A stretch of DNA of 64,000 bases, taken from contig NC_091137.1 of NCBI RefSeq assembly GCF_041381155.1, positions 22,365,655-22,429,654 on the forward strand, in the 5' to 3' direction. The notes beneath the pieces were generated by a model. That model ran no database searches. It saw only the letters and a program-made list of their open reading frames with translations, and had not been told where the DNA came from. The position numbers were made by a program, and so were the translations under genes. This DNA is from Argopecten irradians (Eukaryota; Mollusca; Bivalvia; Pectinida; Pectinidae). Shown in pieces: positions 27,226 through 54,219 of this stretch; positions within the stretch are counted from its first letter, which is position 1; each line of letters opens with the position of its first letter.

Positions 27226-27494
27226 CTACACCGTGAATTCCTTATAATACACCAAATAGGAATATAATATAATGATACCAGGGTTCTGTATGGGGTTCGG
27301 ATCTGTACCATTGAACCATCCAAAGTAGGACAGGGTATTGTCTGTTCCTGGTGGTCCGAGCTGGTCTGTTACATCTATCACCCAAGGGGACACATTTTGT
27401 CCGTCACACCAGCCGTTCCTGCCATACAGCCAGGTACCGTGCTCGTTCGGCTCCACCCCATGTGGCACTTGGTCAGCACAGCCCAGAGGAGTAC
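27226..27494 (-). CDS. PNGase F-like gene, last exon
   Basis: Follows CTTGTGTAG and codes for residues 590-678 with the stop at 27228-27226. It reads GTPLGCADQV, then GTWLYGRNGWCDGQNVSPWV and IDVTDQLG, matching the LGCSANP...DRAGWCPGMAV...IDV region near the C-terminus of PNGase F. The final residues are hydrophobic (IIILYSYLVYYKEFTV), like the closing beta strand of that fold rather than a membrane anchor. Confidence 0.9.
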
Positions 27495-30400
27495 CTACAC
27501 AAGTATGTTATCTTGTTAAATCGGTGAAGGCTTTATATGTTTAAGTACATTGTATTACACATTACCTCAAACAGAAAGTTCTAACAATGAAATGAGAAAA
27601 CAATTGGGATAGCTCTCTACAAGTATGTGGTGATGCAAAGCTGGTTGCCATTATATTTTAAAAAATACATGTTAACATTCAAGTGAATAGTAGGATTTGT
27701 TTCAACATATCAGTCATGCATTATATATGACTAAATTATATGTTTTTATGCCTGTGCATTATGTAAAAGATGATGTCGGCCTATATGAACTCTTTGACCT
27801 TAAATATTAATTCAGGATTCACATCAGCATGATGAGAAGAAGCTGTTTAAGAAAGGTTGTGCTTATTTGACCCTAGTGACCTTGGTTGGAACTCAAAGTC
27901 ATTCAACATAAAAAAAAAATTCAAAAACACTGAGTAGTCCATCATCATCATACAAGCCCTATATCAGGTTTACAGGGTCACTGTTCAAAAGGAAATATTG
28001 ATAAGACGTGGACACATGATGTAAGTTAACTTCCTTTTCAGCAACATATTGGCAACCAATATTACACATATATATATGTACTCTATCCAAACTACACGCA
28101 TGTATTCACACATGTACATAATATCAAGAGTTTATATGGGATCCATAAAATAACAAAAGATAGAAATCTGTTCGTTTGAGGTAAATCATCTAAAGGATTT
28201 TAAAAAGTATTACTGAACAAATTTAGAAAATAAACTAAATTTACCTGCATTACTAAATGTGATGTTGTTGATTTCTTTATTCACTCTGAAATGGTGAGAT
28301 GTTACACAAAATTCTCCACATCCATTCTCATCACTGCCATGTCCTGTAATCACTGCAAATACCTCCACCTAAAAACATCAAAAGATTATACAAAGCTGTG
28401 TTTGTGGGTTTACTTATAGAAATTATAAAACGAAAAAATCTAGAATTCAAAATTACAAATATCAATTAATAATAAAATAAACTCTGTGGTTGTTGCATGT
28501 CATGATCACCTTTTTAATACCATTAGGCACTCTGAAACTGTGCGTCTTAAAATGCGAGTTGTAGGATTTATCAAATGTGGCTCCTGGTTCATACAACACA
28601 GTGACATTGACTGGGACCAGGTCACCTACAAAACAGAGAAATAACAATGGAGTTAGATTATAAAACCTAGATCAAGTGAAAAATCAGGCTTCTATTAATT
28701 AAAACATCTGTCAGAAAATGGAGTTAGATTATAAAACCTAGATCAAGAGAAAAATCAGGCTTCTATTTGAAATATCTGTCATAAAATGGAACTAAATATT
28801 GGTATAAATTATAAAACCTAGATCAAGTAAAAAAATCAGGCTTCTATTTGAAATATCTGTCAGAAAATGGAGTTAGATTATATAACCTAGGTCAAGTGAA
28901 AAACCAGGCTTCTATTTGAAATATCTGTCATAAAATGGAATTTAATATTGGTATAAATTATAAAATCTAGATCAAGTACAAAATCAGGCTTCTATTAAAA
29001 ATATCTGTCAGAAAATGGAGTTAGATTATATAACCTAGGTCAAGTGAAAAACCAGGCTTCTATTTGAAATATCTGTCATAAAATGGAATTTAATATTGGT
29101 ATAAATTATAAAATCTAGATCAAGTAAAAAATCAGGCTTCTATTTGAAATATCACTGTCAGAAAATGGAGTTAGATTATATAACCTAGGTCAAGTGAAAA
29201 ACCAGGCTTCTATTTGAAATATCTGTCATAAAATGGAATTTAATATTGGTATAAATTATAAAATCTAGATCAAGTACAAAATCAGGCTTCTATTAAAAAT
29301 ATCTGTCAGAAAATCAGGCTTCTATTAAAAATATCTGTCAGAAAATGGAGTTAGATTATATAACCTAGGTCAAGTGAAAAACCAGGCTTCTATTTGAAAT
29401 ATCTGTCATAAAATGGAATTTAATATTGGTATAAATTATAAAATCTAGATCAAGTAAAAAATCAGGCTTCTATTTGAAATATCACTGTCAGAAAATGGAG
29501 TTAGATTATATAACCTAGGTCAAGTGAAAAACCAGGCTTCTATTTGAAATATCTGTCATAAAATGGAATTTAATATTGGTATAAATTATAAAATCTAGAT
29601 CAAGTAAAAAATCAGGCTTCTATTTGAAATATCTGTCATAAATACAAGCATAACAAAATCACAGAATCTACCCCCAGTATATGTGTCTGATTTTGGTCCT
29701 CGACATTTCTTAATGTGAATTGATTTACATGAACAAAACACTTTGATCTGACAACAGTGAAACTCAAACTTATTTTTTTTTTAAAAACCCTTGATTAAAT
29801 AAAGCCCCAATAGCTTCTACTGTGAATTCATAAAATCAAAACATTCATTTTAACCTGACTTGTCCAAAATGCTTTGATTCTCTTTGTACACAGTCGAACC
29901 TATCTATCCAAAGAACAGGAGGAAAATGGTCTTTATAGCCAAGTGGCCTTTCAACACAGGTCAAACTGGGTTGGAATAGATCATTAGGGCCCTAGTAAAG
30001 TAGGCTTGTTAAGCAGGTGGTCTAACTACAGAGATGGTCGCTAAGGCAGGTTTTACTGTACGTGCACTTAGGAGGAAATCCATGAAGAAATGAAGCTCTT
30101 AGAGTGTTGTTAATGTTTTTTTTGAACTGTAAAGATCTCATTCCAATCGCAACTTCACAAATGAAAGGAACCCGACCCCTATGTATAATGTACCTTCCCT
30201 TCCCCTCCGAGGAATCAAAGAGATACAGACCCTTCCTCTGCAGCCAAAGAAATTCTAAGGAGTTTAATTCTTCCTTCCTAACAGAAACATTAGGATTTTA
30301 GCCCAACAAGGTCCATTTTCAGGAACACTCCTTACTTTTAAAGGATTCTGTCACTTAAAATTCTCCATAAAAAAGCATTACAAATTTTAAGGAAGACTCC

Positions 30401-33400
30401 TTAACTTAAGAGTTTTCTTTAACTTTTGTAAATGCTTTCCTTTATGGGGAATTTAAAGTTAAGGAATTCCTTTTAGCAAAGAAATTTCCATGAATCTGGA
30501 CCCAGAATAGCTACTGAATCTAAACTAATGGTAATTTCACATGACAATATCAGTGGATGACAGTTACTTTTATTATATAAATTTTAGATGCACAAGCTAT
30601 ACGCAATGACTTACTTGCAGTGACCTTCACATCTCAATATCTCATGAATGACTTAATTATAGATTAATTTTATTGATGGTGTCTAACTAAGCAACATTCT
30701 CTATTCAAAAGTATCCATGGTTATGATAAATACAGAATCTTAATTAGTTCTTGGATAGTAAATCTAATTAAAGTGTTGATAGTAGATAATCTTACCTGCT
30801 ATTCGAGTCTTAGAAAATCTGAGATTCAGAGATGGCTTCCAAGGCATTGCCCAAGGCTCAGTTTTCATGGTGAATACACACGTTGAGCTAGTGAGAAGTG
30901 GGAAGAGAGGCGAAACATCTGTTGTCCACCGACCAATCCTCCTGTACATAGAAAATATTGCCTTTAGGAATAAACAATCTCTTATTCAATATCCTGTTCT
31001 CACACAATCTATCTTTGTAATATGACTGAAGGCAAGGCCTTAAAGGGCGCAGCCAGATGTTTTAATACCAATCATGCACGGCATAGGAAGAGCGAAGCTC
31101 TACTTGTTTATTTTTATTTTCTATTTCATGTAGAAGGCATAATTTAGAAATAAAAGGATGCACTTTAAACTATTGAAGTATATGATGTAATAATTGTCTA
31201 GCATGAACTCAAAGAAATGAATTTTGAAGATTGTGTTTTTTCTTATATTTTCGTGTATCTGTGACCGTAGCAAGGGCACGAAGGACTGCCCCTTTATAAA
31301 TCATTAAATATCTTCCAACTCAAATCTGTATTCTAAAAACAGACTCCTTACACCACAACAATAATCATAACAAGAGGCGCATGGGCCCTAACAGTCATCT
31401 GACTATTATTACAATACAACATAGCCGTTTTAAGATTTTAGAATTTGACTCCTGTGACCTTGATTTTAAATCATTCATTTGAACAAACTTGGTAGCCCTT
31501 CATTCCAGCATGTCACATGCCCAATATCAGGTGTCTAGGCCTCTTAACTATTCACAAGAAGTCGTTTAAAGATTTTAGCCTATTTGACCCCTGTGACCTG
31601 GAATGAAAGTCAAGGTCATTCATTTGCACAAACCTGGTAGCCCAGCATACTGCAGGCCCAATATGAGTATCCTGGACCTTTCGGTTCTTGAGATGTCATT
31701 TAAAGATTTAAGCCTATTTGACCCCTGTGACCTTTGAACAAACTTGGAAGCCCTTCATTCCAGCATGTCACAGGTCCAATATCAGGTCTCTAGGCCTCCT
31801 GGTTATTCTCAAGAAGTCTTTTAAAGGGACATGAACCTAAATAAACCTTGTTTTGAGTAAAATACATAATTCAAATGTGTCAGATACCTTACTAAGTAAT
31901 AAATATCAGTTATTGTGCAAATGTGTCAAATAAAATAATTATAATGGAAATTTGATCTTTCTGTATTTTGAACTGGCCGGTTGAATTTTGCAACGATAGT
32001 GTGATAAAAATAGTAGTGTTGAACTTAAGCGACCTCCCACAATGCACTACACAAATTGAATGAATGTAAACAAATGGTGGGTCAAAAACGTGGGTGAAGC
32101 GAACACAAATGAATTCCGATAGAAAACGGAGTACAACAAGAGTCAGTAACGTGCGCAATTGGGAAAGTAGGTAAATATTGACGGATCGCTGAAATGCAAC
32201 AGACGGGAGCAACTTCCCACTTTATACTTGCGTGATGTACATATGTGCAATAAGTCAAGAACCTCCCTTCGCGGTCCCCGATTATGAAATGTCTCGTTTG
32301 ACTTTTGACTTATCATTCTTACGCTAAATACAAATTGTTTTATAATGAATATTAACAAATATGGCGTCATATGTCAACCATTGTCAATAAGAAAATAATC
32401 TTAAAATGTGGAAAATTAATATTCCTTGTCGAGTCAGCAAGTCTGTTGTTCATTATAACCTCGTTTTCGACCAGCTTTCGTTTTGTGTTCCAAAAACAGA
32501 ATATTACCGTCTATTCTTATCATTTTTGGGGTAGGTATTCCCCACATTTTCCTGTCGTTTTAGACAACCAATCCTCGTAACAAAATATTCAATAAACATC
32601 TGAAAACCATATCTAAGCATACAGAACAACTTATCTAAGGTTCATGTCCCTTTAAAGATTTTAACCTATTTGGCCCCTGCGACTTTGAAAGACAGTCAAG
32701 GTCATTAATTTGAACTAACTTGGTAGCTCATCATCAAAGCATGCTGCAGGCCCAGTATGAGAAACCTGAGACTTTCGGTTATTGAGAAGAAAACTGTTTA
32801 AAGAGTTTAGCCTATTTGACCCCTGTGACATTGAATGAAGGTCAAGGTCATTTATTAAACAAACTTGGTAGCCCTTAATCCTAGCATGCTGTAGGCCCGA
32901 TATGAGTATACTGGGCCTTTCGGTTCTTGAGTAGAAGTCGTTTGAATGAAAAGTTTACGTACACGCGCGACGACTGACGGTGCATGATGACAATAGGTTA
33001 TCCTGACCCTTTGGGTCAGATGACCTAAAAACATCTTAATGCATTGGTACCATCACCCTTGGTATTTATAATGTAGCAATATCAAATTGTGACAAAAATT
33101 CATCAAAGTATGAGTCAAAATAGGGAATGATAGGTATATGTACCGTCGGAAGGCACTTATCCAGCGTCCCAATTCCATCCCACATAGGGGAGATCCGGGG
33201 TCACAGCACACGTACAGGTTGATGGTATGATCCCAGTGGGGACACTCCGTATCCATGGTTCCTGGACATGATAGGGACATATCCAATTCCATCTTGGAAT
33301 AATTCTGTAATTCTGTAAGTATAAAGAAGTAACTTTATCAACTATTGTTTGATTTGTCTCCCTTTTAACAGTTAAAACTGGCTATAGTGGACAACATTGT

Positions 33401-36400
33401 CCTCATCTTGGCATACTTAATCTTGGCATATATCTTTAAATGTAAAAATCTCAAATTGTAAGACTACCTTTGGCTTGTGGCTGAAATTGTATATACATTT
33501 ATAAGGCAATTGAACAATGCATCATCTAAAGGTGAAGAGCTGTAAGTTACAAATTCACTCATATTATCTTCAACAGTTGAAATAATATATATATAGCATG
33601 GATGAAAGTTGATGGAAAAATCCCACTATGACTTATAGGTATTGGACTTAATGATGGTAAATTGTACTTTGTCAAAAGTTATCTTTGACCATTACCAAAC
33701 ATGTATTGGAAAATAATATAAGACCTTAGTAAGAATATTTTAAAATGGACAAAAATTGAAAAAAAAAAATAAAAATATTTGAAGTAAAAAAAATAATTAT
33801 TAAGATAGCATGACTTCTATTGATATGATATTTAATATCTTTTTTTTTCTATAATTATTACCTATCAATATGTCAATTCCACATTACCTAAATGATATGT
33901 GTATAGTAAAATTTACTGTCGGTTAGTTCCAACTTCCAGTGATTATGTTGTTACATTTTTATCACCAAAAGGTGAGATTACCTAACGATAAACTCAAAAC
34001 CCCTGTATTCACACATTATTATGGATTCCTTTTGGATCAGTAAAAACTGTTATTGTTTAAGGTAAATGGAAACTATGACACTATGATTAGGAATAGATCT
34101 AACTATATAATTATCATTTGCACATTCATGCAGTTGTTTTTCTTAGCTACCAAATGTTACCTACCTTTAACATCAGGTAATGTTACATTAACAACAACGC
34201 CTTGTTTCCCATGCATTATTTTCTCTGAGAAGATACTGATAATAGTAGCTTGTGTCTGAAGTCTTCTATCAAGATCAGCTCTGTACAAAAACCTAAAAGA
34301 TAAACACTATGTACTAAAACCACCCAAAATGTATTTTTAAATTGAATCTGCAACACAAAACAAAATTGTCTTTACTGAACAAAATACGACACTTCTTTAT
34401 TACATGCTTTAGTTAGAATTTTCAATGTGTCTTTCTTCTTAAAATGGAGGTACATGAACAGTAATTATATACGGCAATAATTATATACTGCAACACAAAT
34501 TACTGCTTACTTCAAATTACCGACCATACAAATCATTGTTTAAACAAAAACTCTACTAATTTTGTAATCTGATTTATTTTTGCATAAAAATTCTACTCAT
34601 CATACTCCTTGTGAAATGATTTTCCATATCTATGTATTTCCCCTAAATAATGTATTTATATGAAACTTATCAAATCAATTTTCAATTATTTAACCAATGT
34701 TGTGTCATATGGGAGGTATCAATAGGTGTACTTCTTTCTGGACTTAAATGCTATCATATTTTTGTGTGTTGTAATTACCACTGAGCCTGCCACACAAGGA
34801 AATCCATGGAAGGATACAGGAACCAGCCCAGCTCCGACAGTTCTCCGGCCTGGTTTACAGCTAGGAAAAAGTTCTCTGACGGAGTGTTCTGGAAACTGAT
34901 GCTGAAAATATTATTCCTGTAAAAAGAGCAAGAAAAATAATGAAAATTGTCAAAAAAATATTAATGTTTTTCAAATATTAATAAAAAAATTATTGAAAAT
35001 TTTGTTCCCTCATTTGACATTATTATTAAAAACATAGTTGTTTGAAATTTTGCAATATCAACAAACTTAAAAAAACAAGAGGGCCATGGGCCTTAACGGT
35101 CATCTGACTAATATTATATGGCATAAAAAAGTACATAAAGGTCATTCACTTCAAAAAACTAGGTAGCTCTTTATCCTAGTATGCTACAGGCCCAATATCA
35201 GTTCTCAAGGCCTCTTAGTTATTCACAAGAATTTGTTTGAAGATATTAGCTTATTTGACCCCTGTGATCTTGAATGAAGGTCCTTTTGGGCCTTTTGGTT
35301 CTTAAAAAGAAGTCATTTAAAGATTTTAGCCCATTTAACTTTGAATGAAGGTCAAGGTCCTTCATTTGAACAAACTTGGTAGCCCTTCAACCCAGCATCC
35401 TGCTCCCGCAGGCTCAATATGAGTACCCTATGATTTTTGGTTCTTGACCTGAAGTTGTTTAAAAGATTTTAGCCTATGACCCCTGTGACCTTCAATGAAG
35501 GTTAAGGTCCTTTATTTTAACAAATTTGGTAACCCTTTATCCCAGCATGTCACAAGCCTAATATCAGATCTAAAGGCTCCTTAGTTATTCACAAGAAGTT
35601 GTTTAAAGATTTTAGCCTATTTGACCCCTGTGACATTGAATGAAGGTCAAGGTCATTCATTTGCACAAACTTGGTAGCCATTCATTCCAGCATGTCACAG
35701 GTCTAATATTATGTCTCTAGGCCTTTTAGTTACATGTATGTAATATTAATTGCTATTCAAAGGCAAAAGGTTAGTAGTACAACTTAAACTTAACCATGTA
35801 CTCAACTACCAAGTGTCCCTCTATATTTACCCTGTATACAAAGTACTGTACTCCACCATGGTAGCTGGTATAGACAGAGGGGTGTTACACTGACTTACCC
35901 TGTATACAAAGTACTGTACTCCACCATGGTAGCTGGTATAGACAGAGGGGTGTTACACTGACTTACCCTGTATACAAAGTACTGTACTCCACCATGGTAG
36001 CTGGTATAGACAGAGGGGTGTTACACTGACTTACCCTGTATACAAAGTACTGTACTCCACCATGGTAGCTGGTATAGACAGAGGGGTGTTACACTGACTT
36101 ACCCTGTATACAAAGTACTGTACTCCACCATGGTAGCTGGTATAGACAGAGGGGTGTTACACTGACTTACCCTGTATACAAAGTACTGTACTCCACCATG
36201 GTAGCTGGTATAGACAGAGGGGTGTTACACTGACTTACCCTGTATACAAAGTACTGTACTCCACCATGGTAGCTGGTATAGACAGAGGGGTGTTACACTG
36301 ACTTACCCTGTATACAAAGTACTGTACTACACCATTGTAGCTGGTATATACAGAGGGGTGTTACACTGACTTACCCTGTATACAAAGTACTGTACTCCAC

Positions 36401-39400
36401 CATGGTAGCTGGTATAGACAGAGGGGTGTTACACAGACTTAACCTGTATACAAAGTACTGTACTCCACCATGGTAGCTGGTATGGACAGAGGGGTGTTAC
36501 ACTGACTTACCCTGTATACAAAGTACTGTACTCCACCATGGTAGCTGGTATAGACAGAGGGGTGTTACACTGGCTTACCCTGTATACAAAGTACTGTGGT
36601 ATAGACAGAGGGGTGTTACACTGACTTATCCTGTATACAAAGTACTGTACTCCACCATGGTAGCTGGTATAGACAGAGGGGTGTTACACTGACTTACCCT
36701 GTATACAAAGTACTGTACTCCACCGTGGTAGCTGGTATAGACAGAGGGGTGTTACACTGACTTACCCTGTATACAAAGTACTGTACTCCACCATGGTAGC
36801 TGGTATAGACAGAGGGGTGTTACACTGACTTACCCTGTATACAAAGTACTGTACTCCACCATGGTAGCTGGTATAGACAGAGGGGTGTTACACTGACTTA
36901 CCCTGTATACAAAGTACTATACTCCACCATGGTAGCTGGTATAGACAGAGGGGTGTTACACTGACTTACCCTGTATACAAAGTACTGTACTCCACCATGG
37001 TAGCTGGTATAGACAGAGGGGTGTTACACTGACTTACCCTGTATACAAAGTACTGTACTCCACCATGGTAGCTGGTATAGACAGAGGGGTGTTACACTGA
37101 CTTACCCTGTATACAAAGTACTGTACTCCACCATGGTAGCCGGTATAGACAGAGGGGTGTTACACTGACTTATCCTGTATACAAAGTACTGTACTCCACC
37201 ATGGTAGCTGGTATAGACAGAGGGGTGTTACACTGACTTACCCTGTATACAAAGTACTGTACTCCACCATTGTAGCTGGTATATACAGAGGGGTGTTACA
37301 CTGACTTACCCTGTATACAAAGTACTGTACTCCACCATGGTAGCTGGTATAGACAGAGGGGTGTTACAATGACTTACCCTGTATACAAAGTACTGTACTC
37401 CACCATGGTAGCTGGTATAGACAGAGGGGTGTTACACTGACTTACCCTGTATACAAAGTACTGTACTCCACCATGGTAGCTGGTATAGACAGAGGGGTGT
37501 TACACTGACTTACCCTGTATACAAAGTACTGTACTCCACCATGGTAGCTGGTATAGACAGAGGGGTGTTACACTGACTTACCCTGTATACAAAGTACTGT
37601 ACTCCACCATGGTAGCCGGTATAGACAGAGGGGTGTTACACTGACTTATCCTGTATACAAAGTACTGTACTCCACCATGGTAGCTGGTATAGACAGAGGG
37701 GTGTTACACTGACTTACCCTGTATTATACAAAGTACTGTACTCCACCATGGTAGCTGGTATAGACAGAGGGGTGTTACACTGACTTACCCTGTATACAAA
37801 GTACTGTACTCCACCATGGTAGCTGGTATAGACAGAGGGGTGTTACACTGACTTACCCTGTATACAAAGTACTGTACTCCACCATGGTAGCTGGTATAGA
37901 CAGAGGGGTGTTACACTGACTTACCCTGTCTACAAAGTACTGTACTCCACCATGGTAGCTGGTATAGATAGAGGGGTGTTACACTGGCTTACCCTGTATA
38001 CAAAGTACTGTACTCCACCATGGTAGCTGGTATAGATAGAGGGGTGTTACACTGACTTACCCTGTACACAAAGTACTGTACTCCACCATGGTAGCTGGTA
38101 TAGACAGAGGGGTGTTACACTGACTTACCCTGTCTACAAAGTACTGTACTGCACCGTGGTAGCTGGTATAGACAGAGGGGTGTTACACTGGCTTACCCTG
38201 TATACAAAGTACTGTACTCCACCGTTGTAGCTGGTATAGACAGAGGGGTGTTACAATGACTTAACCTGTATACAAAGTACTGTACTCCACCATGGTAGCT
38301 GGTATAGACAGAGGGGTGTTACACTGACTTACCCTGTATACAAAGTACTGTACTCCACTATGGTAGCTGGTATAGACAGAGGGGTGTTACACTGACTTAC
38401 CCTGTAACAAAGTACTGTACTTCACTATGGTAGCTGGTATAGACAGAGGGGTGTTACACTGACTTACCCTGTATACAAAGTACTGTACTCCACCATGGTA
38501 GCTGGTATAGACAGAGGGGTGTTACACTGACTTACCCTGTGTACAAAGTACTGTACTCCACCATGGTAGCTGGTATAGACAGAGGGGTGTTACACTGACT
38601 TACCCTGTATACAAAGTACTGTACTCCACCATGGTAGCCGGTATAGACAGAGGGGTGTTACACTGACTTATCCTGTATACAAAGTACTGTACTCCACCAT
38701 GGTAGCTGGTATAGACTGAGGGGTGTTACACTGACTTACCCTGTATACAAAGTACTGTACTCCACCATGGTAGCCGGTATAGACAGAGGGGTGTTACACT
38801 GACTTATCCTGTATACAAAGTACTGTACTCCACCATGGTAGCTGGTATAGACAGAGGGGTGTTACACTGACTTACCCTGTATACAAAGTACTGTACTCCA
38901 CCATGGTAGCTGGTATAGACAGAGGGGTGTTAAACTGACTTACCCTGTATACAAAGTACTGCACTCCACCGTTGTAGCTGGTATAGACAGAGGGGTGTTA
39001 CACTGACTTACCCTGTATACAAAGTACTGTACTCCACCATGGTAGCTGGTATAGACAGAGGGGTGTTACACTGACTTACCCTGTATACAAAGTACTGTAC
39101 TACACCATTGTAGCTGGTATATACAGAGGGGTGTTACACTGACTTACCCCGTATACAAAGTACTGTACTCCACCATGGTAGCTGGTATAGACAGAGGGGT
39201 GTTACACTGACTTACCCTGTATACAAAGTACTGTACTCCACCATGGTAGCTGGTATAGACAGAGGGGTGTTACACTGACTTACCCTGTATACAAAGTACT
39301 GTACTCCACCATGGTAGCGGGTATAGATAGAGGGGTGTTACACTGACTAGCTTTACAGGTTAACTCTTGTATAGGTTCATCCTTGTCGGAAAAGACTACA

Positions 39401-42400
39401 ACTCCCACTGCTCCCGACTTCTGCATCATTTGAACCTAAAGTGAAAAAATATATCTGGTATTTAATAAGTAATCATTGATCACCTTTTAAAAACAAAAGA
39501 CAAGAATAGATAAATAATTGGAATTGTCGTTTTTTACACGAAAATGTATATGTATGCATGAAATAGTTTGAAAATTTGGGCTAATGACCCTGCCTTGTCA
39601 CACTCCTTTCATTGTATGAAAAGACCATTATTGACCTCCAAATAGAAGATAGTGCAATTTCATTACACTAGGACATGCTGGTCAGTGATTATGACACAGG
39701 GCCTGACCATACCTTGCACCTGTGTTATAGTGCACACCCCAACGTTTGACTTGATTATTTATGAAAAAAAGTGTGCATTCTACTTGCAAAAATACAGTAA
39801 ATAATTTCATGTTATTTCCAGATATTTTTAACCAGCTATGTTGTGTTATGTTAAGTTCAAGTTGGTAAAATTTTCAAAAAGAAAAGATGTGTAAAAACAA
39901 GAGGCCCATGGGCCTTAACGGTCATCTGACTATTTGTACAATACAACATAATCGTTTAAAGATTTTAGCCTATTTGACCACTGTGACCTTGATTGAAGGT
40001 CAAGGTAATTCATTTGAACAAACTTGGTAGTCCTTTATCCCAGCATGCTACATGCCCAATATCAGTACTCTGGGCCTTCTGGTTCTTAAGAAGAATTCAT
40101 TTAAAGATTTTAGCCTATTTGACCCCTGTGACCTTGAATGAAGATCAAGGTCATTCATTTGGACAAACTTGGTAGCCCTTCATCCCAGCATGCCACAGGC
40201 CTAATATCAGGTCTCTAGGCCTCATAGTTATTCACAAGAATTTGTTTAAATGATTTTAGCCTATTTGAACCCTGTGACCTTGAATGAAGGTTAAGGTCAT
40301 TAAATTTGAACTAACTTGGTAGCCCTTCATCCCAGCATCCTACAGGCCAAATATCAGTACCCTGGGCCTTCTGGTTCTTGAGAAGAAGTCGTTTAAAAAT
40401 TTTAGCCTTTTTGACCCCCGTGACCTTGAATGAAGGTAAAGGTCATTCATTTGAACAAACTTGGTAGCCGTTCATCCAAGCATCCTACAGGGCAAATATC
40501 AGTACCCTGGGCCTTCTGGTTCTTGAGAAGAAGTTGTTTAAAGATTTTAGCCTATTTTGACCCTCGTGACCTTGAATGAAGGTCAATGTAATTTATTTGA
40601 ACAAACTTGGTTAGCCCTTCATTCCAGCATGCCATCAGGCCTAATATCAGGTCTCTAGGCCTCTTAGTTATTCACAAGAAGTTGTTTAAAGATTTTAGCC
40701 TATTTGACCCTCGTGACCTTGAAATGAAGGTCAATGTCATTTATTTGAACAAACTTGGTAGCCCCTTCATCCCACAGGCCCTAATATCAGGTCTATAGGA
40801 ATTTTAGTTATTCACAAGAAGTTTATTTAAAGGATTTTAGCCTATTTGACCCCTGTGACCTTGAACTGAAGGTCAAGGTCATTTATTCGAACAAACTTGG
40901 TAGCCCTTCATCCAAGCATGTCACAGTCCCAATATGAGTACCCTGGGCCTTTGGTTCTTGAGAAGAGAAGTCGTTTAAAAGAATTTAGCCTATTTGACCC
41001 TCGTGACCTTGAATGAAGGTCAAGGTCATTTATTTGAACAAACTTGGTAGCCCTTCATCCAAGCATCCTACAGGGCAAATATCAGTACCCTGGGCCTTCT
41101 GGTTCTTGAGAAGAAGTTGTTTAAAGATTTTAGCCTTTTTGACCCTCGTGACCTTGAATGAAGGTCAAGGTCATTTATTTGAACAAACTTGGTAGCCCTC
41201 CATCCCCAGCATGCCACAGTCCCAATATCAGGTCTCTAGGCCTCTTAGTTATTCACAAGAAGTTATTTAAAGGATTTTAGCCTATTTGACCAGTGTGACC
41301 TTGAATGAAGGTCAAGGTCATTTATTTGAACAAACTTGGTAGCCCTTCATCCCAGCATCCTACAGGGCAAATATCAGTACCCCTGGGCCTTCTGGTTCTT
41401 GAGAAGAAGTTGTTTAAAGATTTTGGCCTTTTTGACCCCTGTGATCTTGATTGAAGGTCAAGGTCATTCATTTGAACAAACTTGGTAGCCCTTCATCCAA
41501 GCATGTCACAGGCCCAATATCAGTACCCTGGGCCTTCTGGTTCTTGAGAAGAAGTTGTTTAAAGATTTTAGCCTATTTGACCCTCGTGACCTTGAATGAA
41601 GGTCAAGGTCATTTATTTGAACAAACTGGTAGCCCTTCATCCCAGCATGCCACAGGCCTAATATCAGGTCTCTAGGCCTCTTAGTTCATTCACAAGAAGT
41701 TGTTTAAAGGATTTTAGCCTATTTGACCCTCGTGACCTTGAATGAAGGTCAAGGTCATTTATTCGAACAAACTTGGTAGCCCTTCATCCAGCATCCTACA
41801 GGGCAAATATCAGTACCCTGGGCCTTCTGGTTCTTGAGAAGAAGTTGTTTAAAAATTTTAGCCTTTTTGACCCCTGTGACCTTGAATGAAGGTCAAGGTC
41901 ATTCATTTGAACAAACTTGGTAGCCCTCCATCCCAGCAACCTACACGCCAAATATGAGTACCCTGGGCCTTCTGGTTCTTGAGACAAGGTCTTTTATATT
42001 GATCAATCTTCAGAACTCCGGAGAGCAGGTTTAACCCTTCATCACTGCATGTCAGACAGGGCAAATAATAATGGTCCCTGGGCAGTGTGGTTCATCTGAG
42101 ATTGGGAAGAAAGTTAAGAGATGTAGAACGTCACGTTTAAAGATTTTAGCCTTTTTGACCCTCGTGACCTTGAATGAAGGTCAATGTAATTATTTGAACA
42201 AACTTGGTAGTCGCCATTATTCCAGCATGCCACAGGCCTAATATCATGTACTCTAAGCCTCTTAGTTATTCAAAAGAAGTTGTTTAAAGATTTTAGCCTA
42301 TTTGACCTCTCGTGATCCTTGAATGAAGTCAATGTCCATTTATTTAGAACAAACTTGGAAGCCCTTCATCCCACAGGCCTAATATCAGTACTATAGGGCC

Positions 42401-45400
42401 TCTTAGTTATTCACCAAGAAGTTATGTTTAAAGGTTTTTTAGCCTATTTGACCCCCTGTGACCTTGATTAATGTAGGTCAAGGTCATTTATTCGAACAAA
42501 CTTGGTAGCCCTTCATCCAGCATGTCACAGTCCCAAATATGAGTACCCTGGGCCTTCTGGTTCTTGAGAAGAAGTCGTTTAAAGATTTTAGCCCTATTTG
42601 ACCCCGTGACCTTGAATGAAGGTCAAGGTCATTTATATTGAACACACCTTAAGCAGATGTAGTGTGTCTTTAGCGCCCTTTTTATCATCCCAGCATCCTA
42701 CAAGGGGATATATACAAGTACCCTGGGACATTCTGGTTTTATGGAAGTTTAGTAGTTGTTTTAAAAAGATCTTTAGCCTTTTTGCACCCTCAGTGACCTT
42801 TGAATGAAGGTCCAATGTCAATTCATTTGAAGCCCAAACTTGAGTATAAGACCCTCAGTCCTATTATCCACAGCATGCTACAGTGCCCAATATCAGGCTC
42901 TCTAGAGGGGGGATTCTTAGTTATTCTACAAAGCAGTTCATTTAAAGGTATTTTTAGCCTATTTGAGCCAACTGTTACCTTTGAATGTAACGATCAAGAG
43001 GTCATTCATTGGCCGCAACTTAGTTGGTAGTCACTCCAAAAACTCCACAACCCCCCCCCCCCCTTATTATCAAGCATGTCACAGTCCCAATCTTCAGTAC
43101 TCTGGGCCTTCCTGGTTATTCAGAAAAAGAAGAATTTGTTTAATGATAGATTGATGCCCTATTTAGAACCATCGTGACCTTGACATTGCTAGGCCTTATA
43201 GGGTCCTTTAATATGAACTATCGTTGTGCTAGGTGCCTTAAACCCTGCTTCCTACAGGCCCATATTCTTCATAACCCTGGACTTTTGTGTTTATTGAGCA
43301 AAATGTTTTTTGTGTTTAAGAAATATTTTGGCCTATATGACCCTCCTTGATACCAGTCAGAATGAAGGTAAAGGTCATTCATTAGTTACACAATTGAAGG
43401 TGACCAATACCTCTGTGTTATTTTTTTTTTAATTTTTTTATTTTTTTTTTTTTTTTTTATTTTTTTTTATCCCAGGCATGCCTCATGATATTATCAAGGT
43501 TCTCCTGTGCCTCTCTTGTTATTCACATGATGTTATTTAAAAGGTTGTTTTCATGATTTGACCCTCGTGTCATTGAGTTGAAGAGTCAATGTCTTTGTTA
43601 TTTGAAACAAACTTCTCCGTGTAGTTCGACACGTTAGCCACCACCCCCTTTCATACCCAGCATCCTTACAGGGCAATTTAACAGGTACCCTGGGCCGCTT
43701 CTGTTTCACATTCTATAGGAGAAGTTGGTGTTTTAAAGTTTTTCTAGCATTTTGCTGTCCCATCGTGACCTTTGAATGATGGGTCAATGTCATTTTTTTT
43801 CATTATCTTGAACAAACTTGGTTTTCTGCCCTTTTCATCCCAGCATGACACAGGCCTATTATCAGGTTCTATAGGCTGGCTTTAGTTTTTACTCTAAGCA
43901 GTTCAGTTTTTTTGTTTAGGTTATAAGGCCTAATTAGACCCCACTGTGTCCATGTATGTAGGTCATGGTCATTTTCTCGTTCATATACTGGTAGCCCCTT
44001 CCATCCAAAGCACCTGGATCAAGGGCTCCCCAATATCTCCAGGTACCCTGGGCCTTATGGTTATTGAGTAGCAAAAATAGTCGTTTATCAAGATTTATTA
44101 GACCTATTTTGAAAAAAACCCCTCGTGACCTTGAATGCAGTGTGTCAAGGTCATTTACTGTCGTGAACAAACTATGGTAAGCCCTTTTCTATCCCAGCAT
44201 CCTACAGGGCAAACTATCAGTAACCCTGGGCCTTTCCTGGTTCTTTTGAGGAAGAAGTTGTTATTTTAAAGTTTATGCTGATTTTGACCCTCGTGGACAC
44301 TTGAATGAACGGTCAAGGTCATTTTTATAGATACAATACTTGGTAGCAAGCCCTCCATTCCCATGCATGGCCAACAGTCCTAATAGCTCAGGGTCTCTAG
44401 TGCCTCTTTAGTATATTCACAAGATGAAGAAGTTAATTTTTAAACCTCGCGTATTTTTAGCCTATTTGACCAGTGTGAACAACTGAATGAAGCGTTCAAG
44501 GGTCATTTCTAATCTGAACAAACTTGGTAGCCCTTTTAATTTCACAGCATCCTACAGGGCAAATATCAGTACCCTGGGCCTTCTGGATTCTTGAGAAGAA
44601 GCTTGTTTTAAAGATTTTGGACTTTATGACTTCCCCTGTGGATCTTTGATTTTTGAAGGTCAAGGTCATTCATTTTGATACATCTCTCTTTTTGTGGTCT
44701 GGTCGTAGACCTGGTAGCCCTTTTTTCATCCCTCATGCATTCACAGCCGCCCTTTTATCAGTTACCCTGGGCCTTCTGGTTCTTGAGAAGAAGTTGTTTA
44801 AAGATTTTTGCCTATTTGTACCCTCGTGACCTTGAATGAAGGTGAAGGTCATTTATTTTTGAACAAAACTTGGTAGCCCATTCATCCCAGCATGCCACAG
44901 GCCTAATATCAGGTCTCTAGGCCTCTTAGTTATTCACAAGAAGTTGTTTAAAGGATTTTAGCCTATTTGACCCTCGTGACCTTGAATGAAGGTCAAGGTC
45001 ATTTATTCGAACAAACTTGGTAGCCCTTCATCCCAGCATCCTACAGGGCAAATATCAGTACCCTGGGCCTTCTGGTTCTTGAGAAGAAGTTGTTTAAAAA
45101 TTTTAGCCTTTTTGACCCCTGTGACCTTGAATGAAGGTCAAGGTCATTCATTTGAACAAACTTGGTAGCCCTCCATCCCAGCAACCTACACGCCAAATAT
45201 GAGTACCCTGGGCCTTCTGGTTCTTGAGAAGAAGTCGTTTGAATAAAAAGTTTACGCACGGCGCGCGGCGGACGGCGGACGGCGCACGGCGCACGACGAC
45301 GGACGGTGCATGATGACAATAGGTCATCCTGACCTTCGGGTCAAAAGACCTAATAATACCCCCATTTCGATTCTACCTTATGGAAAATATAGTAACGAGA

Positions 45401-47957
45401 TTTCTTTAGTTAACCAGGGCAACTGCTCCTTTAACAGAGCTGACAGCCTCACATCCAGATACCAGCCCTCACCAATGGTAGGTTTTTTGTTCCCAAAAAC
45501 AAACTTGATAGGACTTGTGTAACCTCATGACCATATCTAATCATCCAGTCTCTTACCAACAACAGGAAACTGTGAGGCTGAATGGATCAAAAATGGATCC
45601 TATGAAAATTGTAATATAATTTATGACCAAATATATTGAAAGACAAGCTATAATGGAAACATTTAGTGTAACGCAGTATCTTTTCCATGTACATTTTCCT
45701 ATGAATGTTTTTGCATTAATTAAAATCATAATCGAGTCACAGATGAAACCAGCAATTGGATTTGTGCTATATGTACACATGCTTTGCTTTGATGCATTAG
45801 TATAAAAATAAAAAAAAACATCTATAGTTATTTAGTTAATTATTAGATTTCTATACATGATTCATTTTTTATTAAGTTGATTCACAAAGTGTAATACATG
45901 TAAGTACATGTATTTTGTTCCCATAATAACAACTACAGTATAGCTACATATAGTTACAAGTTATAATATAATTGTTCTCTATGTCATTACCATTAGATTG
46001 GACCAAAACCTGATCATAGCCACAAAGATGATCCACACAATGCCACTGACTCAATGCATCTGGAATCCAGTTACCAAGTTTGTCAAGGGGAACAACAGAA
46101 AAATGGATTCTCATCATAGCAAGACCAACATCTGAACCAGATCTAGACCTGGTGAAAAATTAAAAACATCATAGAATAAATATATGTACACATGCAGTCA
46201 ATAAACATAATCATAATAGTCTTTGGTACAGATTCTGTGCTCATCATGATCTTTAATGATATTAAAAATTGGTACATGTAGCTAGAACTAGCAAAAGAAT
46301 TGGAATTTAACAGACAAATTCAAGATTCTTCAAAAAAACAATGTGGAGATCTACAATGTGAAACTGTCAGTATATCTTGTCAAAGAGGATCACATTTTTA
46401 GAGGCATCAATGCAAATTCATTGTGAATACGAATATGACTTGTGAATCAATAAATTCTAATACTGTACATGTATATCATGCCCAGGTTGCTACGAGTACT
46501 ATATTGGAGAAACTGGTACATTAAAAGCTCTCGATCGGGTTAGAGTACACAAACAGCACATTCGATTTCCAGAGTACAGGAAAATTTAATTAAGCAAACA
46601 TTTGGACATTTGCTGAAGGTAAATTGCATGCATTGTCAGTACAATGTAATTAAAGTAGGATTTTAAAAGCGAGTCCAGAACACTAATTTTCAAATTCTGA
46701 TGAGTCCCTGATATGCAGATTCCCTCTACAAAGAAATTAATATATGTTCATTAAAGATTTATAAGTGAGAAGGATTCGTGACTGTCTCTTTACATTACTA
46801 AACACCACGCGAGACGCCTATGAACCAAGAATTAAAAAAAAAACATTTTTCTCAACAAATAAATTCTTGTCTTATCCAGTCAAAAGAAACACCAATGTAA
46901 AGTTTATTAAATTCAAAATTTTAATTACTTGCTTTAAGGACAGAATATTTAGAGGATATGTCTTAAATTTTCGTTAAAAAAATACGACAGCCCATGTAAT
47001 GACGGCCCGCTTCAGAGAGTAAGATGGTAACTCTCGCACCCGCAAGCTACATCAAAGGCTGCACCGGCGGATATTAAAGGAAAATCAGTCGTCGCCCAAC
47101 GTCACGGTCAGTACATGCACAAACACAAAAGCTCCTGTCTTGTACTTCCCCAAAACCCAGTGTGACATATCCTTCTCATATATATATATGTCCTTGATGT
47201 ACATGTAGTTGTACTTGTACAATATGTAATTGTACATACTTGGTTAAAATTTACACATGGAATTTGTCAATATTTTGATGATTCGCATAAAAACCGATAA
47301 GCTCTTGACCTGCCTAGACTTTCATAAAAAAAAGTTATTCTACCTAGTCATTTAACAGAAACAATTGACCTACAATGGAACATTCTGTTTTTTCATTGTC
47401 TGATGAATACGGTCTCTCATCCACAGAGCCCCATAAAGGTCATGTATCTCCGCTGATTTTGGAATAAAAATAAAATGCGTCGAATTTAAAACCTCGGAAG
47501 TTACTATTGGCTTCAATCCTTCATCCGATGTCCACATTGACTCAAGAAATCCTGAGGATGGGTCGAATACGTGGATTATAATCGAAGAATTGAGAAACAT
47601 TTCACTTGGATAAACAAGTTTGCCATCTAGTCCCCATATCGAAAATTGAGGTGCAATTGAGCCTGGTGTGTATGCAATTATTTCTCCGTCCTTTAATGGT
47701 GGTCTCGATACACTTGAATATTTTTTGTCCGTATGTAGATCCAAGTTTCGTTTCCCTACTTCCACGGACCACGAGTTTGATGAATGTTTTATCGCTCCAT
47801 TTTGTTTTTGCGATATTCCGATATTATCAAATATACGGATATTGTCATACTTTTGTTTATTATGCAAAGTATGAGACTGTTGGATGTTACAGGAAACAAC
47901 AGCAATACATATAAAAGCTATCAAAAACGACACGAATGTCATGTTTACGTCCACCAT
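27226..47957 (-). CDS. Secreted PNGase F-like amidase with PA segment (whole gene, 11 exons)
   Basis: Exons in transcript order: 47957-47374, 46148-45991, 45467-45415, 39435-39284, 34916-34779, 34292-34165, 33312-33144, 30941-30796, 28625-28510, 28368-28245, 27494-27226. All phases join into one frame of 678 codons plus stop. Order: signal peptide (about 1-23), unassigned N-terminal region, PA-like segment (about 245-330), then a PNGase F-type domain (about 400-660). Residues matching bacterial PNGase F catalytic D60, E118 and E206 are D432 (in CPHWDH), E489 (in KTEPW) and E567 (in GCGEFC). The C-terminal part has GRNGWCDG, like RAGWCPG in PNGase F. The family removes N-glycans by cutting the Asn-GlcNAc amide; a secreted or lumenal site of action is inferred from the signal peptide. 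Exon 3 and the exon 1 donor are the weakest joins. Catalytic activity is inferred, not shown. Confidence 0.85.
28245..28625 (-). CDS. PNGase F-like gene, exons 9 and 10 (second catalytic Glu)
   Basis: Exon 9 (28625-28510) codes for residues 510-548, ending at AAAAAG|GTGATC. Exon 10 (28368-28245) codes for 549-589 and contains VITGHGSDENGCGEFCVTSH, matching the SGWGH...GCAEWCFRTH region of PNGase F with E567 in place of E206. The spacing between these motifs is close to that of the bacterial enzyme, though the loop before GCGEFC is shorter. Confidence 0.88.
28650..29640. repeat. Intronic tandem repeat with ~150-bp two-part unit
   Basis: Alternating sub-units of about 68 bp (GAGTTAGATTATATAACCTA...) and 80 bp (GGAATTTAATATTGGTATAA...), both ending in ATCAGGCTTCTATTTGAAAT. 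The pair repeats at 147-150 bp, with one 180-bp exception. Lies in intron 8 of the PNGase F-like gene. Confidence 0.85.
29889..30061. mobile_element. Probable TA-flanked MITE
   Basis: Left end CACAGTCGAACCT and right end GGCAGGTTTTACTG, roughly inverted, both next to TA. A Tc1/mariner-type origin is possible. Right-hand match is imperfect. Confidence 0.4.
30314..30480. repeat. Imperfect inverted repeat
   Basis: AGGAACACTCCTTAC... CTCCATAAAAAAGCATTACA is mirrored by TGTAAATGCTTTCCTTTATGG... TTAAGGAATTCCTT. A degraded foldback element inside intron 8 of the PNGase F-like gene. Confidence 0.5.
30796..30941 (-). CDS. PNGase F-like gene, exon 8 (first catalytic Glu)
   Basis: Codes for residues 461-509 between TATGTACAG and GTAAGATT. 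RRIGRWTTDVSPLFPLL parallels EIGRFITPYW of PNGase F, followed by TSSTCVFTMKTEPWAMPW, where E489 corresponds to E118 of the IYTETW motif, and the strand SLNLRFSKTRIA. Confidence 0.88.
31370..33027 (+). mobile_element. Pearl-like element, 146-bp core, with a nested transposon
   Basis: ACAAGAGGCGCATGGGCCC start and GACCCTTTGGGTCAGATGACC end. The core is a 146-bp unit (GACCTTGAATGAAGGTCAAGG...CAAACTTGGTAGCCCTTCA). A TTAA-flanked element (31825-32651) is inserted in the middle. Lies in the intron between exons 7 and 8 of the PNGase F-like gene. Confidence 0.75.
31825..32651. mobile_element. TTAA-flanked DNA transposon with AGGGACATGAACC ends
   Basis: Ends AGGGACATGAACC and GGTTCATGTCCCT, each next to TTAA (31821-31824 and 32652-32655), inside a pearl-like element. 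TTAA duplication points to piggyBac or Kolobok type. 827 bp and no transposase recognised. Confidence 0.75.
33144..33312 (-). CDS. PNGase F-like gene, exon 7 (catalytic Asp)
   Basis: Codes for residues 405-460. The segment SCPGTMDTECPHWDHTINLY aligns by eye with the CPNKTCDEWDRYANVYV stretch of bacterial PNGase F; D432 takes the place of D60, the key catalytic residue. Extra Cys residues (VCCDPGSPLC) suggest added disulphides relative to the bacterial enzyme. Two acceptors eight bases apart are possible; only the upstream one (CTTACAG) keeps the frame open. Confidence 0.88.
34165..34916 (-). CDS. PNGase F-like gene, exons 5 and 6
   Basis: Exon 5 (34916-34779) follows CTTTTTACAG and codes for residues 317-361 (NNIFSISFQNTPSENFFLAV and on to VWQAQ); exon 6 (34292-34165) follows ATCTTTTAG and codes for 363-404, ending before GTAGGT. 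Phases are 2 and 1 and join without a break, with a Trp codon split across the first junction. This part links the PA segment to the amidase domain; I do not recognise a separate domain in it. Confidence 0.8.
35075..35732 (+). mobile_element. Pearl-like element, 146-bp core, 3' end missing
   Basis: ACAAGAGGGCCATGGGCC start followed by four to five diverged 146-bp units; the ACGG tract and terminal hairpin are absent. It lies in intron 4 of the PNGase F-like gene, next to the 68-bp array. Confidence 0.65.
35828..39349 (-). repeat. 68-bp tandem array made from an exon end and its splice donor
   Basis: About 52 near-identical units, period 68 bp. On the minus strand each unit reads GTGTAACACCCCTCTGTC, TATACCAGCTACCATGGTGG, AGTACAGTACTTTGTATACA, then GGTAAGTCA. 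The unit nearest exon 4 is the exon itself; every further unit repeats its last ~55 bases and donor. A few units differ: a 24-bp deletion near 36,590, a 3-bp insertion near 37,733, and scattered single changes. The most distal unit ends in GGTAAATATAG instead of GGTAAGTCAG. Confidence 0.93.
39284..39435 (-). CDS. PNGase F-like gene, exon 4 (PA segment)
   Basis: Starts after CACTTTAG and reads VQMMQKSGAVGVVVFSDKDE and on to MVEYSTLYT (residues 266-315). The GAVGVVVFSD strand is characteristic of protease-associated domains. It ends ACAGG|GTAAGTC, a near-perfect donor. The last ~55 bases of this exon plus the donor are the template of the 68-bp array that follows directly in the intron. Reading through the donor meets a stop at once (the TAA of GTAAGT). 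Confidence 0.8.
39898..45354 (+). mobile_element. Large pearl-like element, ~35 units of 146 bp
   Basis: Full 5' start and full 3' end (GGCGCACGGCGCACGACGACGG tract cut short here, then hairpin GGTCATCCTGACC-TTC-GGGTCA). The core is a long tandem array of the 146-bp unit. Units from about 41,990 to 44,830 carry very many small insertions compared with those on either side. Lies in the intron between exons 3 and 4 of the PNGase F-like gene and ends about 60 bp from exon 3. Confidence 0.78.
45415..46148 (-). CDS. PNGase F-like gene, exons 2 and 3
   Basis: Exon 2 (46148-45991) starts after TTTTTCACCAG and ends at G|GTAATG; it codes for residues 195-247, including CVDHLCGYDQ. Exon 3 (45467-45415) is a proposed 53-nt exon coding for LVSGCEAVSSVKGAVAL, which looks like the first strands of a PA domain (GAVALV). 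Its acceptor (TTGGTGAG) is poor and its donor (CTG|GTTAAC) is weak, but the phases fit both neighbours. A pearl-like element ends only about 60 bp beyond this exon. Exon 2 is solid; exon 3 is tentative. Confidence 0.6.
46479..46980 (+). mobile_element. GIY-YIG endonuclease relic, Penelope-like (fossil)
   Basis: The plus strand shows a short piece CYEYYIGETG with a following RVRVHKQHIRFPEY, the GIY-YIG pattern of the endonuclease at the end of Penelope-like retroelements. Only this end piece is recognisable and it is broken. It lies in intron 1 of the PNGase F-like gene, on the opposite strand. Confidence 0.5.
47374..47957 (-). CDS. PNGase F-like gene, exon 1 with signal peptide
   Basis: Codes for residues 1-194 plus two bases. 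It begins MVDVNMTFVSFLIAFICIAV, a charged start followed by a hydrophobic run and VVSC, a typical signal peptide; a second in-frame Met lies at residue 6. The rest is polar with several NxS/T sites. The stretch around IAPQFSIWGLDGKLVYPSE faintly recalls thioredoxin-like proteins but lacks a CxxC. The donor chosen (ATT|GTAGGT) is weak; it is preferred because it gives the phase needed by the next exon. The open frame itself runs on to a stop at 47370-47372. Confidence 0.75.
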
Positions 47958-48556: not shown

Positions 48557-49065
48557 TTAAACTCCATGACGACTCATTTCCGACACTGACACCCTTTGTA
48601 GTTCACTCATCTCTTGCAGACGTTTCCGACACTTCTTCTTGTGTCCTGGTATGCCACAGAAGAAACATAATCTTGTCGACTTCGTTCCTTCATGAATTGA
48701 TCTTAGAGCAGCTGGGGCCCCTTGGATCTGCAGTGCATCTATTCCCTCGACTATCTTCTTGACGATTCTATCGATGGAATCATCGTCTTCTTCCTGAATT
48801 TGACGGATGCTGCATGTTGCGCCTTTTTGTCTCCAAACCCTGAATGTTTCATGAGATAGTGCAATCCGCATAGCATCTTCGATGGTCTGCACATAGCTTG
48901 AATGTACAGACCATTCCATTTCGGTGTCATTCAGGGCATCTATAAAGCAGTCAATGCTTATCTGTTGTCTAGACTCTTGGTTTGCAGATGGGTATTCTAG
49001 TCTTACTAGTCTTTTAATCTCATGTGCCAGCTCAGGTAGCGCTTGATCTTTCTTCCTTAATTTTC
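48557..49065 (-). mobile_element. Retrotransposon gag fragment (fossil)
   Basis: A minus-strand frame with a CCHC-type zinc knuckle (CFFCGIPGHKKKC) after an acidic linker and an alpha-helical stretch typical of LTR-retrotransposon gag. Only part of gag is present; no polymerase or LTR is seen. It is an old, broken, isolated piece between the PNGase F-like gene and the metallothionein cluster. Confidence 0.6.
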
Positions 49066-49157
49066 CTTTTTATTTGTGTCTTGTAACTGGCTGACATATT
49101 TTCAGGTTGAAATCTTGATGTTTTTACTTGTGTCGTCCCATCCATTCATTCCATTCA

Positions 49158-53245: not shown

Positions 53246-54219
53246 CCAGAAAATCATCATCATAATCCAACGCCCATGTGTCACGCCATGTTATAATCAA
53301 CCGGACATTTTATTCCCTGGGCATTTGATGCCTCAATCGTGCAAATCTCCATGTTTCATCCATGTGTGTAAAACACTATTTTTGAACAATGACCAATTAC
53401 TCTTTTTTGTGTATAAATCATGTGTATGTTATCGGTAGTTCGATGTTGTAAATAATGTGATACGTTGTTGCTAATATCTAATAAATATGGTTACTATAAC
53501 CATGTACATTTTTCTTGTTTTTCATTACATTGATATGACCTATCATATACACTGTGTGAATAAGACTGGCCATCAATAGCCCACCTGTATCTGAAGATTG
53601 AAGAAAAAAAAATCACTAAAAGTTGGCTGATAATTTGTGTCTCTACTTCATGTCTGATCCTATCTGAGTTTTTAAACTAGAGGGAGATAATGTAGTAAAG
53701 AACTCTGCTGAGAAAGTTAACAATTTAGGGCCAGGTGGTCAGTCTATGTATGAATATTCACACAAACTATATAGTAAGACAAAAAAGATATGTCTGTTTA
53801 GTGTTACAGTGGGAAAAAAATAGGGTCGGGAGAATTTTTTAGTTTCTTTCACTCTAAAATAATGACCGGAACCGGTGCGGCATTTTCATTTGTAACCGTT
53901 TTCAAGTGTGACCTGTGGCGCATTGCGCATGCGCGAAGCAAATATAATGGCATAGTTTAATACATGGATTGGCAATGCTCTAGCAGACGAAATTGTGTAT
54001 TACAATTATGTACTACAACGTCAATATGGGAAATGTGGACATTCTAGTCAATACATGTAATAATAAATGGTGTTTACAAAATGTAAGACTTATATTTTAC
54101 CTAAAAAATGTAACTGATAGCATATAAAATTTTTAATACTATAGGCCTAACACTCATGTGTAGTATTATAGAATGTGTGATAATGATATATTAAAACACC
54201 ACATCAGGAAAGCCGTTTA

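Follow-up and report, generated by a model that had tools for sequence, protein, structure and literature searches.

Intron 7 of the human F7 gene begins with a row of 5–8 repeats, a much shorter row than the 52 units described below, and human IFI6 (6-16, G1P3) contains a minisatellite with a short, in-frame unit. In the words of the title of a 1995 study (Turri et al.), the IFI6 minisatellite "provides multiple splice donor sites". Here we analyze a window of 64,000 nucleotides (nt) from the bivalve Argopecten irradians (contig NC_091137.1, positions 22,365,655 to 22,429,654; coordinates given without a contig count from the first base of this window), in which such a row spans the boundary of exon 4 and intron 4 of a gene that is, by homology, a relative of ngly2, a member of the sugar-removing acid peptide:N-glycanase (PNGase) family. 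The first unit holds the true exon end with its 5′ splice site, the further units carry the donor consensus, and the row is in this sense an exon–donor minisatellite. We consider it fairly probable that the array is neutral, and that it is tolerated as the first donor is used and the whole array is removed with the intron.

In F7, highly homologous repeats of 37 bp likewise stand at an exon–intron border, with the true donor in the first repeat and latent donors downstream, and no donor but the most upstream one is used (PMC6627357). This use is stated for F7, whereas we infer it for the ngly2-like gene, and the unit of the latter takes in 64 exon bases. In IFI6, two downstream repeat units are used as donors, with three mRNAs (PMC4526556), whereas in the ngly2-like gene every later donor would stop translation. 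Tandem repeats that span exon–intron boundaries can also shift splicing in human duplicated genes, where 27 intron modifications were reported (PMC2812944); these were found through variation between recent paralogs, and rows of about 50 donors do not occur in the part of that text that was covered. Finally, introns have been gained by tandem duplication across a boundary in potato (PMC4974935) and within coding sequence in flies (PMC2891723). These systems resemble our array in that a tandem duplication across or near an exon–intron boundary copies splice signals, but a new intron arises there, whereas in the ngly2-like gene an existing intron has merely become longer. Through the latent acceptors that we found in 46 of the 52 units, the array is a possible precursor of such an intron gain. 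Neither a mollusc case nor a survey of donor arrays was found in the open-licence literature among the matches listed, as judged by titles and the beginnings of abstracts. The kind of element is known, and what seems to be new is how long the array is, which gene hosts it and, most of all, how many such arrays one genome appears to contain. Even taken alone, the locus is a large natural example of an element known from a few human genes, and with near-identical donors every 68 bases, of which only the first would be productive, it offers a natural test of 5′ splice site choice.

Tandem Repeats Finder (TRF) located the array at 35827–39348, with a period of 204 bp across the whole and of 68 bp in two overlapping rows. 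When split into units in gene orientation, it gave 52 copies, in agreement with the roughly 52 copies of an exon end plus donor that had been noted in a preliminary description of this DNA. Forty-nine copies have 68 nt, and copies 14, 24 and 41 have 67, 71 and 51 nt. The unit had been thought to comprise about 55 exon bases followed by GGTAAGTC; it actually contains 64 nt from the end of exon 4 and four intron bases (GTAA), and the final GT of GTAAGT already begins the next unit, which means that positions +5 and +6 of each donor are contributed by the first two bases of the following copy. The flank after the last copy reads ATATAG, hence the last donor is GTAAAT. A shared AGTCAGTG in exon and intron had been taken for the short homology at which the first duplication arose, but this sequence is where the unit itself begins, read behind two different bases, so that the repeat was compared with itself; the breakpoints (marked by a slash: exon ...AAAGCTA/GTCAGTG, intron ...GGTAA/ATATAG) have one base in common. 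A chance origin of the array is excluded. In the 846-Mb genome, the unit was matched 52 times, all at the ngly2-like locus (such counts are lower bounds), and the idea of a dispersed satellite was rejected. A structured RNA was rejected as well, as an Rfam scan of the window gave no match and the folding of about three units was ordinary (z −1.12).

On average, a full-length unit deviates from the consensus by 0.96 bases, and the consensus itself is found in 19 of the 49. Their 47 differences represent 23 variant types at 19 positions, and variants are common to blocks of copies, such as GGATAA followed by CCGGC at copies 8–9, 10–11, 25–26 and 32–33. The seven consecutive copies 46–52 all equal the consensus, and this makes the array look youngest at its intron side. 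Such a run of equal copies would also fit an array, or at least a copy number, that was made by the assembler. We regard this as the least probable of all explanations, since the copies differ in patterned ways, with the said 23 variant types over 49 units, the flanks are unique, and similar arrays exist elsewhere in the genome.

A GT is retained at 45 of the 52 donors: 40 are AGG/GTAAGT, one is GGG/GTAAGT, three are AGG/GTAAGC, and the last copy has AGG/GTAAAT, whereas the remaining seven read GGATAA (five) or GGTTAA (two). The donors had been described as equal, which does not hold for these seven nor for the weaker last copy. A prediction of U1 binding per unit, which had been suggested as a check, gave −8.9 to −10.3 kcal/mol for 44 of the 52 donors and −6.4 kcal/mol for the last donor. 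Exon 4 leaves two bases that are completed by exon 5, and its in-frame join across donor 1 (YTG-NNIF) confirms the earlier view that the PA exon ends at the donor of the array. When exon 4 was lengthened in turn up to every one of the 45 GT donors and then linked in silico to exon 5, only donor 1 gave a join free of stops. The remaining 44 run into a stop, as had been foreseen for later donors, and this is always the same codon, the TAA at donor 1 (GGG TAA). The distance from this stop to the new exon junction is 64 nt for donor 2 and grows to 3,449 nt for the last donor. According to the usual rule, stops that lie farther than 50–55 nt upstream of a junction make a message a substrate for decay, and by this rule the messages from later donors would be decay substrates.

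We propose that the array was founded by a tandem duplication whose breakpoints lay within exon 4 and after the fourth base of intron 4. This would have copied the end of the exon along with its 5′ splice site, and unequal exchange or slippage would then have enlarged the row to 52 units. Provided that the sequence beyond the last copy represents the old intron, GTAAAT would be the ancestral donor; it would have been replaced at the junction by GTAAGT, as positions +5 and +6 now come from the next unit, with a change in predicted U1 pairing from −6.4 to −10.0 kcal/mol. It is most probable that the spliceosome settles on the first donor, which lies farthest upstream, and the array would then leave as intron, whereas the use of a later donor would result in an immediate stop and a decayed message. 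The array would have no function of its own and would be tolerated because it is invisible after splicing. The same donors could alternatively act as a regulatory poison array, in which later donors are used in some transcripts, the early stop leads to their destruction, and the copy number sets the output. That 44 of the 45 GT donors give a stop at least 64 nt before the junction, that 40 of the 52 have the full AGG/GTAAGT, and that later units are used in IFI6 (PMC4526556) would suit such a function, which we nevertheless judge to be improbable: the donors are not conserved between the copies, F7 uses the first donor only (PMC6627357), and exon 3 of the ngly2-like gene already looks broken (see below).

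No base of the unit is changed as often as the +1 G of the donor, which differs in 7 of the 49 full-length units, and of the 47 differences 10 fall on the six donor positions, out of 68, compared with 4.1 expected; this excess is a description and not a formal test, as the copies share ancestry and variants occur in blocks. The donor thus belongs to the most variable parts of the unit, which is the opposite of purifying selection and speaks against a maintained U1 decoy. Such a decoy, or a tuning of expression, had been considered before, and these counts do not bear it out. A row of donors might bind the U1 small nuclear ribonucleoprotein in order to titrate it or to guard the long intron from premature polyadenylation, and the pairing predicted for 44 of the 52 donors as well as the genome-wide over-representation of donor-word arrays would be in line with this. 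As a U1 platform, however, the array would be expected to vary least at the donor, yet it is there that it varies among the most, with the +1 G as the most mutated base and no sign of maintenance, and we therefore regard a decoy or shield as very improbable.

The assignment of the host gene is based on homology to zebrafish Si:dkey-256h2.1 (Ngly2; PDB 9lwg), which was matched by exons 4–6 with an E-value of 1.9e-30, by a joined query of exons 4–8, 11 and 10 (in that order, with exon 9 omitted) with 6.6e-114, and by exons 1 and 2, the exon 3 candidates and exon 4 with 4.2e-25. The motifs with the catalytic Asp and Glu of Ngly2 (HWD and CGE) are aligned in the host protein, and the Ngly2 positions 421 and 555 (PMC12753239) fit the chain numbering with a single offset of 25, as counted by hand. 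In the same 2025 paper, ngly2 is described as an acid peptide:N-glycanase with thioredoxin-like, PA and PNGase domains and with orthologs that include Bivalvia (PMC12753239). The genome has one N-glycanase_C locus, which is the host gene of the array; the match of the exon 4 region to the Pfam PA profile is sub-threshold (18.9 bits, cut-off 23.9). Exons 4–11 form one open frame that ends in a stop codon and contains seven GT–AG junctions, and exons 1 and 2 are open and joined in frame. At 28646–29642 of the minus strand, the gene contains a second tandem array, which ends about 20–30 nt before the exon 9 acceptor and whose units carry TCTAAC...TTTTCTGACAG, a branch-point-like plus acceptor-like arrangement that is the mirror image of the donor array.

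The exon 3 region does not fit an intact gene. Here, PVVGKRLD matches PVIGKRLN of the zebrafish protein; stops come after it, and the similarity continues in another frame. A frameshift-tolerant alignment of the tblastn match scored 52, compared with a maximum of 35 in 60 shuffles; the end of the match may belong to a dispersed repeat, and we do not claim exact frame breaks. The dispersed sequence that follows the remnant is also present near 33000, as seen by eye. An enumeration of possible exons between exons 2 and 4 (60–330 nt, right phase, open, pyrimidine share of at least 0.6, donor with at least 6 of 9 matches) gave three candidates, none of them recognizably homologous, and we read them as derived from dispersed repeats. 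An intact exon 3 was not found by motif search, enumeration, tblastn or genome-wide search, nor was an open path from exon 2 to exon 4 or a complete open frame of the ngly2-like gene. The DNA of the region has a single genome match, and as a protein query it gave, beyond the host gene, two matches on other contigs, both weak (E 0.08 and 0.12). From its sequence, exon 3 looks broken in this assembly, which may reflect a pseudogene, a null allele or an assembly error, and the working gene that the preliminary description had presupposed is called into question. If the gene is a pseudogene, the array may have grown unconstrained after gene death. The missing open path, the shifted frames and stops, the lack of a recognizably homologous candidate among the three enumerated, the absence of a good second copy from the genome, and the finding that zebrafish without ngly2 are viable and fertile (PMC12753239) all favor this scenario. 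Against it stand the open frame of exons 4–11 with its seven intact junctions and both catalytic motifs, the open exons 1 and 2, the possibility that the exon 3 defect is an assembly error or a null allele, and the similar arrays at SEL1L and a GART-like gene, which indicate that gene death is not needed. We see gene death as less likely than not, but as the most serious competitor of a neutral array in a gene that splices from donor 1.

Several observations weigh against this neutral interpretation with exclusive use of the first donor. If exon 3 is indeed broken, the gene may yield no protein whichever donor is used. The downstream units of IFI6 serve as donors, and by analogy the use of the first donor would not be a law. 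Furthermore, 46 of the 52 units contain a latent acceptor, a pyrimidine-rich stretch ending in ACCAG 34 nt before the next donor, and splicing within the array is conceivable; the first, coding copy is without this acceptor through a synonymous difference (CCC/CCA). Third codon positions also hold 11 of 20 variant types, compared with 6.9 expected (P 0.04), a weak hint that the copies were once or at times fed by the coding exon copy, or that neutrality is incomplete. The 34-nt pieces from latent acceptor to donor were considered as ordinary mini-exons, and this idea was dropped, as exon 4 joins exon 5 directly.

Donor arrays are not confined to this locus. In genome-wide pattern searches, in which the counts represent matches and not arrays, and long arrays count repeatedly, three RGGTAAGT words with gaps of 32–62 nt gave at least 14,780 matches, compared with 2,537 for the reversed word (the forward part is exactly 8,000 and perhaps a lower bound), and with gaps of 63–93 nt the numbers were 12,805 and 2,218. 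Two more composition-matched words gave 3,746 and 4,897 matches at 32–62 nt, which places the donor-word triplets 3–6 fold above three composition-matched control words. Stricter words showed larger differences, with 493 versus 22 control triplets for CAGGTAAGTA, which has a T three bases upstream, and 541 versus 7 for CAGGTAAGTG. The latter excess is weakened by the single CAGGTAAGTG words, which are 3.4 times as common as their reversed counterparts (3,144 versus 923), although about 17% of the donor words and 0.8% of the control words start a triplet. Acceptor words (TTTNCAGG) showed no excess genome-wide, with 5,586 matches versus 5,899 for the reversed word, and we rejected arrays of acceptor words as a general effect.

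Among the matches listed first in four of the genome-wide pattern searches, which lie on contigs C1–C4, we inspected the 15 distinct arrays with at least three closely spaced donor words (four from the RGGTAAGT triplets at 32–62 nt, six from the CAGGTAAGTA triplets, four from the CAGGTAAGTG triplets and one more from the single CAGGTAAGTG words); their exon ends were read by eye, and the frequency of the class rests on the pattern hits. In eight, the first donor directly follows an exon that has an acceptor AG and an open frame, and the exon end lies within the unit. The same build in unrelated genes, as far as it can be read by eye, supports recurrence. Homology supports the identity of the gene at two of these eight arrays, SEL1L and the GART-like gene. 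Six of the eight exon peptides were searched in the PDB; three matched, one clearly and two in a weak or suggestive manner, and three were without a match. The HEAT-like match owes its E-value of 4e-12 to the summed repeats of an engineered protein, of which no single stretch passes. In a Pfam scan of exon peptides, none passed a cut-off. In the GART-like case, the exon together with the next exon beyond the array reaches 47.8 bits for Formyl_trans_N (cut-off 26.1), compared with 36.4 bits for the next exon alone, and profile positions 1–10 come from the array exon, so that splicing from the first donor across the entire array would yield an intact domain. The SEL1L array has GTAATC as the donor of its last copy and GTAAGT at the inner donors, and thereby shares with the ngly2-like array a donor that would have been strengthened at the duplication junction. 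Its first units (array at C3:62369720–62373755) have 48 bp and are open in frame (CETALTYYKKVAATGK), and because they read on in frame, later donors could lengthen the SEL1L-like protein. At C1:1196501–1199500, two near-identical exon copies (RIKEKRTAAHELACMAASGDDNKFRIVAEGG) lie about 1.36 kb apart with a 41-bp donor repeat after both, and this array seems to have been duplicated together with its exon.

On this basis we propose, tentatively and with slightly less than even confidence, that an exon end repeated in a row together with its 5′ splice site represents a recurrent class of element with hundreds of loci in unrelated genes, which are seeded preferentially at donors and not at acceptors, with only donor duplications surviving and the founding event perhaps being favored. 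In general, short tandem duplications across exon ends, with little or some homology at the breakpoints, would grow by slippage or unequal exchange. The asymmetry between donors and acceptors might exist because a duplicate donor downstream is ignored, whereas a duplicate acceptor, which precedes the true one, is used and would disturb the message, which would result in no excess of acceptors. The founding event may have been favored, as the junction turned the weaker donors (GTAAAT in ngly2, GTAATC in SEL1L) into GTAAGT. Tolerance would not be enough for the excess of donor arrays over control words, which needs more, for example that the many coding donors act as a source or that the sequence is locally unstable. 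The wider proposal has to accommodate that at six of the 15 arrays no exon was seen by eye before the first donor. If the genome-wide pattern is true, it would provide many natural experiments in which spacing, phase and copy number differ. It would also give a testable explanation for the tolerance of tandem growth at donors and not at acceptors, which is relevant to the growth and origin of introns.

Table 1. Exons of the ngly2-like gene, its donor array, and donor arrays inspected elsewhere in the genome
Feature	Position	Strand	Remarks
Exon 1	47374..47957	−	Start codon; thioredoxin-like part by position
Exon 2	45991..46148	−	
Exon 3, apparent remnant	45409..45600	−	Rest of PA domain; homologous stretches in different frames, stops; dispersed repeat after it
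Exon 4	39284..39435	−	152 nt; part of PA domain; last 64 nt are unit 1; from zebrafish Ngly2 homology and frame
Donor 1	39278..39283	−	GTAAGT; reading frame kept by no other GT donor of the array
Minisatellite	35827..39347	−	52 tandem units (64 nt from the end of exon 4, then GTAA); from TRF and unit splitting
Donor 52	35825..35830	−	GTAAAT; last copy, probably ancestral and weaker (U1 duplex −6.4 versus −10.0 kcal/mol)
Exon 5	34779..34916	−	Joined in frame to donor 1
Exon 6	34165..34292	−	
Exon 7	33144..33312	−	HWDH motif with catalytic Asp of Ngly2
Exon 8	30796..30941	−	
Exon 9	28510..28625	−	
Exon 10	28245..28368	−	CGEF motif with catalytic Glu of Ngly2
Exon 11	27226..27494	−	Last coding exon
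Exon-anchored array	C1:1198068		Only about 8 exon bases in unit
Exon-anchored array	C1:10612765		Perlecan-like but weak, PDB E 0.22
Exon-anchored array	C1:19810835		GART-like formyl transferase; exon peptide alone without PDB match
Exon-anchored array	C1:21410329		
Exon-anchored array	C2:28082266		Pfam scan only, no match
Exon-anchored array	C3:51228509		HEAT-like, suggestive only
Exon-anchored array	C3:54894467		Pfam scan only, no match
Exon-anchored array	C3:62369720		SEL1L, PDB E 2e-38
Probable exon-anchored array	C1:2890660		
Array without exon	C1:337941		Dispersed repeat abuts
Array without exon	C1:1099028		
Array without exon	C1:1158752		
Array without exon	C1:67387640		
Array without exon	C3:13412891		
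Array without exon	C4:45805110		

In the neighborhood of the array, dispersed repeat blocks of a 145-bp type occur at 32651–32936, 35165–35720, 39954–42644 and 44756–45240, that is, on both sides of it and in nearby introns. An open frame of 170 amino acids on the minus strand (48560–49069) has a zinc-knuckle-like CFFCGIPGHKKKC motif and appears gag-like by eye. Also by eye, two similar open frames at 15286–15720 and 19870–20118 of the minus strand resemble an exon of C-type lectins (WANSDDPVQYTDW..EPQN.GSGENCVCL). The segments 51439–53290 and 57349–58216 are diverged copies of one block, with similar short frames (STFWTL..SV.GA.SDVTTCSV; HGVTH.R..) about 5–6 kb apart. Elsewhere in the genome, six CAGGTAAGTG words at C1:12551355–12571790 are spaced by about 4.08 kb, which suggests a cluster of tandem genes or of a repeat with a large unit.

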